In this document: piece after piece, positions 38,605 to 41,396 of the stretch | Numbering within the stretch: the first letter of the stretch is position 1 | How the letters are laid out: the number at the start of each line of letters is the position of its first letter | Assembly (NCBI GenBank): GCA_025998675.1 | Contig: AP024673.1 | Coordinates: 2,054,562 to 2,118,561, forward strand | Source: Fimbriimonadales bacterium | Lineage (GTDB): Bacteria; Armatimonadota; Fimbriimonadia; Fimbriimonadales; GBS-DC | Length of the DNA: 64,000 nt | Direction: 5' to 3' | Notes under the pieces: generated by a model | What the model saw: the letters and a program-made list of their open reading frames with translations, nothing else | The model's database searches: none | Told to the model about the DNA's origin: nothing | Made by a program: the position numbers and the translations under genes

Positions 38605-39185
38605 GCGAGCGCATCGAGTACCAGAAGATTGCCGCGCACTACCCCGACGCGATCGAGGAAGTGTACGAATTTCGCGGCGACACATGGCTGTATATCCGCA
38701 AGGAGCGACTGCTGGAGGTCTGCCGCCTGCTGCGCGACGACCCCGAACTGGGCTATCTCTACATCAGCGACATCACCGCGCTGGACTGGCTGCCCTTCTG
38801 GGAGAAGGGCGAGAAGCCCAAACGCTTCGAGGTGGTCTACAACCTCTATTCGCCCGTGAGTTTCCAGCGCATCTTTCTGAAGGTGCGCGTGGACGAGGGC
38901 GAGCGCGTGCCCTCCGTGACAGGCGTCTGGGAAGGCGCGAACTACCCTGAGCGTGAGGTGTACGACATGTTTGGCGTTCCGTTCGAGGGGCATCCGAACC
39001 TGAAGCGCATCCTGATGCCCGACGACTGGGTGGGGCATCCGCTGCGCAAGGACTTCCCGCTGGGCGGCGAGGAAATCCCCTTCGCACAGGACACCTGGGG
39101 TCCCTCGATTGAAGACAAAACGCACCCCCATGCGGGCGAGTCGTTCGAAGGGCTGACCGGCTCCGAGCCGGTGAGTGGGAGATAA
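38601..39185 (+). CDS. nuoC: NADH-quinone oxidoreductase subunit C
   Basis: Peripheral-arm subunit of complex I (30-kDa subunit), 194 residues. The C-terminal signature covers [24 protein letters not shown] and H-P-L-R-K-D-F-P-L. It directly follows nuoA; nuoB, which normally lies between them, is absent, and no nuoD follows. Its stop codon touches a family-A terminal repeat at 39185. Confidence 0.95.
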
Positions 39186-39245
39186 TACCAACTGCGCGGT
39201 CAGAGTTCGCTAATTGCCTCGCACGCGCCTGCAGAGGCATGCTGT
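39185..39245 (-). repeat. Family-A terminal fragment (solo end)
   Basis: Starts ATACCAACTGCGCGGTCAGA and continues into GCGCCTGCAG. It matches the outer ~60 bp of the right end of the 226-bp elements. No second end follows, so it is a truncated copy abutting the nuoC stop codon and the left edge of the DarT locus. Confidence 0.65.
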
Positions 39246-39272
39246 TGTCCCGCAATTGTCATTAAAGTGTGC

Positions 39273-39278
39273 TATAAT
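39273..39278 (+). promoter_or_regulatory. Extended -10 promoter of the darT operon
   Basis: TGCTATAAT: a perfect TATAAT with the TGn extension, about 30 nt before the darT start. The preceding TTGTCA is only 11 nt away and is not a usable -35. Confidence 0.5.
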
Positions 39279-39308
39279 AGGGGTGTGAGTGCATAGCGAG
39301 GTGAACCG

Positions 39309-40202
39309 ATGAAGCTACTTCGGTCTTTGTGGAAAGCCGTGAGGCAATTGGTCGCTGGAGAAACATCTGATGAGAAGCCTGCTGCCATACCAAGCGAGCC
39401 AGCGCGACAGAATACGGAGCCTGAACAAAGTTCCATGCGCGAAATCCGCCCTGCTGTGCAGATAGATTCTCTGCAACAGCCAGCACAACCGCAACAGAGC
39501 GTCCAAAGTCCCTCCAGAGTTCTCGTGGGCAAGGATGAGCCTCGTTCAGAGGCTCGGACGCCACACCCGATCCAGCAAATCTGCGAGCGTCGGGAGATCA
39601 GCCAGATCGTCCACTTCACTCATATTGCGAATCTGGAGACGGTTCTTCGTCATGGACTCTTGAGTATTCAGGAGCTGCAGAGAAGGAATATTCCCTATCG
39701 TTGGAACGACGATCAGCGTTGGGATGGTCGCCCAGATGCTATCTGCACAAGTATTACCTTTCCTAACTACCGCATGTTTTACCGCTATCGACAATCGGCG
39801 AATGGTGAGTGGATTGTTCTGGCGTTTGATAGCAGCCTGTTGTGGACACGGCGATGCGCCTTTTGCTGGACCAACGCCGCAAGCAATAATATCCGTTTCA
39901 CGCTCAGCCGAAATATCGACAGTCTGATGACGCCAGAGGCTTTTGAGCGCATGTTCGCAGAAGAAGTCAGCGGAAAAAGCCGCTCGCAGCTGGGGATACC
40001 CAGCAACTACACCACCGATCCGCAAGCGGAGGTGTTATTCTTGGAGCCATTGCCAGTCTCGCAACTGCGGGCAATCTATGTCTACTCGAGTGATGTAGCA
40101 TCGCGTGTGCGCAATACAGTGGGCGAGTATGCAAATCTCGTACGCTCCAACAGCGCTTACTTCAGTCCCCGCTCGGACTGGAGCCACTGGAAGCAGGGAT
40201 GA
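39309..40202 (+). CDS. darT: DarT-family ADP-ribosyltransferase toxin (DUF4433)
   Basis: NAD-dependent DNA ADP-ribosyltransferase toxin. The DarT core starts near residue 98 with I-V-H-F-T-H-I-A-N-L-E and R-H-G-L-L-S, the NAD-binding His and loop. The ARTT-like region D-P-Q-A-E-V-L-F-L-E follows, with probable catalytic Glu241, and then L-R-A-I-Y-V. DarT1 members modify guanine and DarT2 thymidine; the NADAR-type partner downstream points to the DarT1 branch. The first ~95 residues (Gln/Pro/Ser-rich) are an unusual extension. The region is visibly poorer in GC than its surroundings, which suggests acquisition. Confidence 0.8.
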   Translation: MKLLRSLWKAVRQLVAGETSDEKPAAIPSEPARQNTEPEQSSMREIRPAVQIDSLQQPAQPQQSVQSPSRVLVGKDEPRSEARTPHPIQQICERREISQIVHFTHIANLETVLRHGLLSIQELQRRNIPYRWNDDQRWDGRPDAICTSITFPNYRMFYRYRQSANGEWIVLAFDSSLLWTRRCAFCWTNAASNNIRFTLSRNIDSLMTPEAFERMFAEEVSGKSRSQLGIPSNYTTDPQAEVLFLEPLPVSQLRAIYVYSSDVASRVRNTVGEYANLVRSNSAYFSPRSDWSHWKQG

Positions 40203-40268
40203 GAGATATTCGCTTGTGGCTGCGCAGGGCGATTGGTAGATTCGGGTAAAATCTTTCAGGAGGCTGGC

Positions 40269-41093
40269 ATGGCGGAGCGGTTAGTGTTTGTCACGAAATC
40301 GAAACAACCTTTTCATGAGGAGCGCAGCGTAAAGTTTAAGTGGGTCGCGGGTCAAGCGCTCAGTAAGAAACGAGAATGTGCCAGCAACCTGGTCAGCGCC
40401 GCTGCGGAGCTGCATGGACTGAAGTGTGTCATGGAGATTTCTCGCGCGAGCGATGAGTTAGGACAGCAGTTCAGCGCATTCAGGCTGCGTGTCCGTGTTT
40501 CGCCTACAGAAAAGCCCACAACAGTAGAAGTCGTATATCAGAACAGTAAAGTGTGGGCGCATGCCAGAGCCGAGAGTGAATTCGTCAACTATTCTGGCTC
40601 TGCCTTCGACGCAAAAAAGCGTGCAAACCTGCGCCGCGAAGAGGGCGGCAAACTGAGGGACTTCTGTGTCTGTGTAGATGGACGCGAATTCCACTTTGAC
40701 CTGGAGCCGAAGGACGCCTTCTACAACTGGCTCTACATCAAAGCGCTGCGTCAAAAACATAACGAGAGGCTGGTCGCGGCGCTTGAGAGTAGGATTTGTC
40801 AAGAATGCAGGGTTAGCGACCTAAGGCAAATTGCTCATCTGGGAGAAAACTGTCGTATCGGGTTCACGGACGTGTTTTTCAATCCCCAAAAAGGCAAACA
40901 ATACAACTGCCAGGCGCGGGCGCTTGCACAGTATATCAGCTTGAGGATATATCATCCCGAACAGTTGGACAGAATCTTTCCACCGCACGAGGAAAGCCTA
41001 TCAGCTGCAGGAGACTTGGAAGAAAGTTTCAGAAAGTATGTCGAGTTTGTCCATGAGCAAAGTCCAGATGGCTCACTCGACCTGCTATTGTAA
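40269..41093 (+). CDS. DarT1-associated NADAR-type antitoxin (DUF6977-like)
   Basis: A 274-residue protein matching the NADAR antitoxins that reverse guanine ADP-ribosylation by DarT1. Matching blocks are V-K-F-K-W-V-A-G-Q-A (about 21-30), C-V-M-E-I-S-R-A-S, L-G-Q-Q-F-S-A-F, V-E-V-V-Y-Q-N-S-K-V-W, K-D-A-F-Y-N-W-L-Y and F-T-D-V-F-F-N-P-Q-K-G-K, then N-C-Q-A-R-A-L-A. A ~15-residue insert with two Cys (I-C-Q-E-C) sits in the middle. The ATG at 40269 is chosen because AGGAGG lies 5 nt upstream. The gap to darT is 66 nt on the same strand, the normal toxin-antitoxin layout. Confidence 0.78.
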   Translation: MAERLVFVTKSKQPFHEERSVKFKWVAGQALSKKRECASNLVSAAAELHGLKCVMEISRASDELGQQFSAFRLRVRVSPTEKPTTVEVVYQNSKVWAHARAESEFVNYSGSAFDAKKRANLRREEGGKLRDFCVCVDGREFHFDLEPKDAFYNWLYIKALRQKHNERLVAALESRICQECRVSDLRQIAHLGENCRIGFTDVFFNPQKGKQYNCQARALAQYISLRIYHPEQLDRIFPPHEESLSAAGDLEESFRKYVEFVHEQSPDGSLDLLL

Positions 41094-41215: not shown

Positions 41216-41355
41216 ATACTGATTGTGCAGTCAGAGTTCGTAAATTGCCCCCCTCCTCAAGGTTCCCCCTGCGCGCAGGAGGAACCTTGAGGAGGGGGTT
41301 CGGGGTATCTCCGCGACGCAGCCTGATTTACGAAGTCTGAGAGGCGGATTGGTAT
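41216..41355 (+). mobile_element. MITE-like element sharing family-A ends, different core (140 bp)
   Basis: The ends carry the family-A GTCAGAGTTCGTAAAT motif and its inverted counterpart (ATTTACGAAGTCTGAG), closing with ATTGGTAT. The interior is a single hairpin with perfect 18-bp arms at 41249-41266 and 41281-41298. The internal sequence is unrelated to the CCCTCTCCC cores of the longer copies. Confidence 0.65.
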
Positions 41356-41396
41356 CACAAACGGCGCATGCCTCAAAAAAACCTACCCCTTTGAGG
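41356..41396 (-). repeat. Dispersed 41-bp repeat, family B, copy 2
   Basis: Directly adjoins the end of the preceding element. On the minus strand it reads CCTCAAAGGGGTAGG and ends GCGCCGTTTGTG, 39 of 41 identical to 10869-10909. Confidence 0.75.

Follow-up and report, generated by a model that had tools for sequence, protein, structure and literature searches.

The window, i.e., the whole 64,000-nucleotide stretch that was analyzed, carries two adjacent genes that very probably constitute a DarT1-NADAR (DarTG1) toxin-antitoxin pair, a member of a system already described in print. This assignment is based on profile and PDB matches, on the conservation of essential residues, and on predicted folds similar to those of the PDB entries 8BAQ and 8BAT. 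According to the list of open reading frames (ORFs), both frames are open and arranged head to tail on the plus strand:

39309 to 40202, plus strand: darT1, predicted guanine-specific DNA ADP-ribosyltransferase toxin of 297 amino acids, assigned by PF14487, 8BAQ, residues and fold
40269 to 41093, plus strand: nadar (darG1), predicted guanine-ADP-ribose hydrolase antitoxin of 274 amino acids, assigned by PF22397, 8BAT, residues and fold

In a profile search the first protein matched the Pfam family DarT (PF14487) with an E-value of 2.9e-22. Using phmmer, DarT1 of E. coli C7 (8BAQ) was found with an E-value of 1.2e-45 as the single distinct PDB sequence matched at E-values up to 1, with residues 88–264, corresponding to the ART core alone, being aligned. 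The PADLOC model for DarT gave an E-value of 2.3e-12, and the NCBIfam model for DarT remained below threshold (32.6 bits, cut-off 150), next to one chance-level match to another family. These weak scores fit a DarT1 protein, as the models in both collections probably describe DarT2-like proteins.

Exchange of R52, D54, M71, N104, or E152 to alanine was reported to abolish the toxicity of C7 DarT1 (PMC11543638). In the alignment with 8BAQ, these residues correspond to R137, D139, M156, N189, and E241 of the window protein, the latter by position, because the crystallized protein carries an E152A exchange. E241 is invariant in an alignment of 12 sequences, whose 16 invariant columns also include D134, R137, D139, S148, M156, F157, and N189. 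S148, the equivalent of C7 S63, is a serine where DarT2 has a tyrosine, and N189 is an asparagine where DarT2 has a histidine. Of the guanine-recognition pair of C7 DarT1, Y75 is kept as Y160, while K74 is replaced by R159; further positions that differ are R35 (I120), S26 (T111), G32 (L117), and M33 (L118). The AlphaFold2 model of DarT1, based on a 12-row alignment, had a mean pLDDT of 79.7, with most of the ART core above 90. In a Foldseek search with this model, 8BAQ was the best PDB match (E-value 3.9e-21, TM-score by target 0.86), followed at 3e-8 and weaker, thus about 13 orders of magnitude in E-value behind, by DarT structures of the DarTG kind. The profile, PDB and fold matches bear out the proposal of the earlier note that the first gene encodes a DarT-type DNA ADP-ribosyltransferase, and the alignment of E241 with the catalytic E152 argues for its suggestion that E241 is the catalytic residue.

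The nadar gene follows on the same strand after a gap of 66 bp. The most likely start codon, judged from the sequence, is the ATG at position 40269 rather than the alternative TTG at position 40233: it is preceded by AGGAGG and aligns with the Met-Ala of nine relatives, which supports rather than proves this choice, as the starts of the relatives had been set at the methionine in question. The encoded protein matched NADAR-DarT1 (PF22397), the Pfam model for DarT1-associated antitoxins, with an E-value of 1e-40 and 139.9 bits (cut-off 27). Among PDB sequences, searched at E-values up to 1, the NADAR of Geobacter lovleyi (8BAT) was found with an E-value of 1.5e-18, besides one chance-level match (0.59). 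No PADLOC model (E-value up to 1), no NCBIfam model and no Macro domain of Pfam (E-value up to 1) matched this protein, in agreement with the earlier claim that the partner is a NADAR and not the macrodomain protein DarG.

For NADAR, rescue was reported to depend on E88, K95, K115, and D171, and catalysis on E88, K95, and D171 (PMC11543638). These residues map to E87, K94, K116, and D201 of the window protein, which are invariant in 10 sequences, and the dispensable E173 of the C7 protein corresponds to F203. The mapping was routed via the NADAR of Escherichia whittamii, in which the five landmarks including E173 are located two residues later, an offset determined by eye. The AlphaFold2 model of the window NADAR had a pLDDT of 86.3, and 8BAT was the only PDB structure matched at E-values up to 0.001 (1.6e-14, TM-score by target 0.83). 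The G. lovleyi protein is thus the best match in both sequence and fold, with a sequence identity of about 30% over the aligned folds. For each of the two predicted structures the best PDB match belonged to the expected class, DarT1 and NADAR, respectively, and the profile searches proposed in the earlier note gave DarT for the first and NADAR-DarT1 for the second protein. Taken as a pair, the proteins resemble DarTG1 of E. coli C7 (8BAQ, PMC11543638) in the ART fold, the five essential toxin residues and the E/K/K/D set of NADAR. They differ from it by an 87-residue N-terminal extension of DarT1, by R159 in place of the guanine-contacting K74, and by a longer NADAR, whose extra stretches were recognized by comparison with other relatives.

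DarT1 was described to catalyze the NAD+-dependent ADP-ribosylation of guanine N2 in single-stranded DNA, a modification that is reversed by NADAR, and co-expression of NADAR rescued E. coli from the lethality of DarT1 (PMC11543638). NADAR stands in for the macrodomain in some DarT-DarG-like systems (PMC9503650), and either DarTG family includes members able to protect E. coli against phages (PMC12255303). Chemistry, toxicity, rescue and phage defence of the window pair are inferred from these relatives. By analogy, DarT1 would use NAD+ to attach ADP-ribose to guanine N2 in single-stranded DNA, and the modified guanines would block replication. NADAR would hydrolyze the guanine-ADP-ribose bond and the cell would survive until a trigger, which would most likely be phage infection, tips the balance between toxin and antitoxin. 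The gene order agrees with that of relatives: in a sample of 25 DarT1 ORFs, obtained by searches seeded with the window proteins and including the window itself, 23 of the 24 others have darT1 before nadar, both in one direction, and in 21 of these the two lie within 200 bp. A NADAR at a distance of up to 1.5 kb and an intact start of the core were conditions for inclusion in the sample, which was not de-duplicated, and hence the count is informative with regard to the order alone.

A role outside phage defence, either in the regulation of replication or in the maintenance of a genetic element by addiction, appears rather unlikely. It would be in line with the repeats flanking darT1-nadar, with plasmid-borne relatives (DarT1 in 28 and NADAR in 27 plasmid records), and with the report that DarT of Mycobacterium tuberculosis coordinates growth (PMC12170906). 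However, phage protection in E. coli was described for both DarTG families (PMC12255303), and a Deinococcus plasmid encodes one relative close to a gene annotated as BREX-1; both observations concern copies other than that of the window.

Much less probable is that the DarT1-NADAR pair represents a decayed or silent copy which has lost its activity. The repeat at the edge of the cassette is truncated, and a scan for sigma-70-type promoters revealed none on the plus strand between positions 39100 and 41400. On the other hand, both frames are open, the essential residues are retained, a plausible ribosome binding site was seen by eye before each start codon, and the start of darT1 is preceded, at a distance of 30 bp, by a possible promoter element:

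39270 to 39278, plus strand: possible extended -10 element (TGcTATAAT) without a clear -35 region, weakly indicated by an exact pattern match in 39184–39312

A DarTG2-type pair, composed of a thymine-modifying DarT2 and the macrodomain protein DarG and mis-read as DarT1-NADAR, is highly improbable. DarTG2 systems are alike in possessing a related ART toxin and in their general logic, and differ in the target base, thymine, and in the antitoxin, a macrodomain DarG. Confusion is conceivable because PF14487 and the PADLOC DarT model match both the window toxin and a DarT2-like toxin, and because a DarT2-DarG pair is present elsewhere in the same genome. This second DarTG, located at G000:C1:2349634-2351260 (L058 1426-3052), was recognized by the PADLOC models for DarT (1.1e-67) and DarG (4.7e-71), and its antitoxin has a Macro match, whereas the partner in the window has none at E-values up to 1 and matches NADAR-DarT1. 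Together with the DarT1 states of N189 and S148 and with 8BAQ ranking ahead of all other DarT structures in the fold comparison, this led to the rejection of the DarTG2 reading at the levels of profile, residues, and fold. Two DNA ADP-ribosylation systems thus coexist in one genome. A chance resemblance of the pair to DarT1 and NADAR is ruled out by the E-values.

The DarT1-NADAR pair differs in composition from its surroundings. The GC content is 0.537 for darT1 and 0.512 for nadar, and the GC content at third codon positions (GC3) is 0.581 and 0.571, respectively, compared to 0.803–0.879 for seven other genes, which confirms the lower GC content stated in the earlier note. The pair is bordered by repeats on both sides:

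39184 to 39254, plus strand: truncated dispersed repeat (family A of the earlier note), present as a 71-bp copy directly after nuoC and recognized by its matches in the genome
41104 to 41216, plus strand: dispersed repeat of about 112 bp, probably family B of the earlier note, with six other nearly full copies at 83–89%
41217 to 41356, no strand assigned: element that is similar to family A at one end (34 bp with 79% identity to the left repeat, E-value 0.008) and has a central palindrome

For the left repeat, at least 45 matches, complete or partial, were counted in the own genome including its own copy, a minimum given that scores were computed for 40 of 98 candidates; by eye, its similarity to four other copies ends at about position 39254. 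A query with the right flank likewise yielded 45 matches in the genome, complete and partial ones taken together. The palindrome of the third element covers positions 41249–41298 (50 bp, 96%), and the outer limits of this element were set by eye. The arrangement previously described, with a family-A end on the left and a family-A-like element plus family B on the right, was therefore recovered. These families of dispersed repeats, part of which have palindromic cores, may be mobile miniature elements or regulatory repeats.

The genes upstream of darT1 are, judged from their sequences, probably mnmG, nuoA, and nuoC. Downstream of nadar, Pfam identified a gene for a C11 (clostripain family) protease on the other strand, followed by a plus-strand DUF444 gene. 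None of the three neighboring genes tested matched a PADLOC model at E-values up to 0.01. Of the "island" postulated earlier, the low GC content and the repeat flanks hold, but its extent is reduced to a two-gene cassette between housekeeping-type genes.

The low GC3, the patchy occurrence and the flanking repeats indicate that darT1-nadar most likely arrived by horizontal transfer, at a site behind nuoC that is turning over. NADAR-DarT1 was matched in three of 61 genomes, the own one included, and in two of them above the family cut-off. A DarT1-like protein was found in six of 291 genomes of the phylum, again including the own one, and the other five proteins are at most 45% identical to that of the window. 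A nuoC match was obtained in nine of twelve other genomes of the same genus (in the case of G010, one of two copies was fetched); in all nine, the pair was absent from the 1.5 kb after nuoC, and at least five different neighbors were seen there by eye. One of the relatives, G004, contains a homologous pair (L041, L075), whose DarT1 is 43–45% identical, likewise starts with MKLL and has a NADAR partner. It differs from the window pair by its genomic location, by an extension of 56 residues and by long insertions in NADAR. In G009, a DarT1-like frame without a findable start (L042) and, on another contig, a NADAR fragment (L003) were present. The mobile defence module proposed in the earlier note is thus supported as far as horizontal acquisition is concerned and no further: by eye, no target-site duplication was noticed at the pair and no integrase among the adjacent ORFs, and no empty site was found. 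As to a phage origin, neither protein was matched in 50,697 phage records at E-values up to 1e-5. NADAR relatives were found on 14 viral contigs, one of which was also retrieved with DarT1.

In G008, a DNA methyltransferase gene (Pfam N6_N4_Mtase; 1.4e-60 with the PADLOC model for type II methyltransferases) occupies the position behind nuoC (L074 1983-4155), together with the genes of a DUF433-DUF5615 pair, which belongs to a known type of toxin-antitoxin system. As the window has DarT1-NADAR at this position, these two genomes suggest that the site takes up genes of this sort in this genus and might be a small defence hotspot. The genes for nuoC and the C11 protease are located on different contigs in G004 and G008, for instance, which speaks against a simple insertion, and therefore the junction itself may be rearranged. 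We also considered that the cassette has split the nuo operon. A nuoD-type gene is located at C1:1118768 of the own genome, and in some genomes outside the genus nuoC is followed by a nuoD-like gene, as seen by eye. This idea was rejected because other genes follow nuoC also in the nine same-genus relatives; the cassette thus did not split an operon that is still intact in the genus.

The N-terminal part of DarT1 lies outside the region aligned with 8BAQ:

39309 to 39569, plus strand: N-terminal extension of DarT1, 87 residues, comprising an amphipathic basic helix (residues 3–15) and a linker with many P, S, Q, and E residues, as deduced from the model and the helical moment

In the AlphaFold2 model the helix has moderate confidence, with block means of 73 and 60 for residues 1–20, and pLDDT is below 50 for residues 17–57; the other rows of the 12-row alignment hardly cover residues 1–87. 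The linker following the helix comprises 71 residues. The best 18-residue helical moment of the N-terminus was 0.538, a value matched by 56 of 5000 shuffles and reached by two of 66 N-termini of window ORFs, a set that was not restricted to genuine genes and that, by the rule applied, included DarT1 itself. The corresponding best moment of the G004 homologue was 0.509, and for the first 16 residues the values were 0.384 for the homologue versus 0.642 for the window protein. The helical-moment test is thus a weak one.

Nine of the 25 DarT1 ORFs in the sample are extended by at least 50 residues, and the remaining 16 are not. Three of the extended proteins contain a 19-residue stretch with a mean Kyte-Doolittle hydropathy of at least 1.6 (L046, 2.43; L054, 1.94; L083, 2.05), and six stay below this value, among them the window protein (0.13). 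The threshold is unspecific, as the toxin of Deinococcus sp. QL22, which is outside the sample, reaches 1.69 in mid-sequence, away from the N-terminus. L042, L045, L053, L055, L056, and L057 were left out due to a lost 5′ end, a weak, broken or cut core, or the lack of a NADAR, and L082, L084, and L092 have no DarT1 row; the sample includes a second DarT1 of L046, located behind its NADAR, as well as L085 and L091, which look alike and may be close relatives. The extensions of L043, L046, L051, L054, and L083 contain no Pfam domain above cut-off, and in a Poribacteria metagenome-assembled genome (MAG), a WD40 propeller and a macrodomain occur as additions to DarT1. N-terminal extensions are therefore not rare among these DarT1 proteins and differ in kind.

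Several relatives have an unusual architecture. In the Poribacteria MAG (OY282383.1, L047 7065-9308), a single open frame of 748 amino acids combines a macrodomain, DarT1, and NADAR; shortly before it lie a WD40-DarT1 gene and a NADAR gene that stands alone. The frame could be a toxin-antitoxin fusion or the product of a deletion or of the assembly. The IMG/VR contig 2829929398_000005 (L083 1232-2998), which is classed as viral, encodes a DarT1 with hydrophobic N-terminal segments and an extension of 373 residues, followed by NADAR. In IMG/VR 3300026519_000498 (L046 1576-3982), a DarT1 gene coding for a hydrophobic N-terminus, a NADAR gene and a second DarT1-like gene are present on the same strand. 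A plasmid of Deinococcus sp. QL22 (L094, NZ_CP097151.1 8378-16953) encodes a DarT1 of 846 amino acids with about 650 residues preceding the ART domain; this gene and that for NADAR are located behind an N-6 DNA methylase gene, and pglZ (annotated as BREX-1) follows with three other genes in between.

As a tentative and rather speculative idea, a subclass of DarT1 proteins might be held at the membrane via the N-terminus, by an amphipathic helix plus a flexible tether in this genus and by transmembrane segments elsewhere, and thereby be positioned at the site of phage DNA entry or of membrane-bound replication, the extensions serving as exchangeable modules for location or sensing. Such tethering would be less plausible for the window DarT1 than for the proteins of L046 and L083. 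In the passages searched of papers on DarT1/NADAR and of a survey of viral NAD-ADP-ribose systems, no description of N-terminal extensions of DarT1 was found with respect to membranes, fusions or WD40 domains.

The points of interest of the pair are the host lineage, the co-residence with a second DarTG, and the extension of DarT1. The pair places DarTG1 in a lineage beyond the studied examples of E. coli and Geobacter, in a genome that also has a DarTG of the thymine type. If the extensions serve for tethering or sensing, they would provide a direct handle on what activates DarT1.
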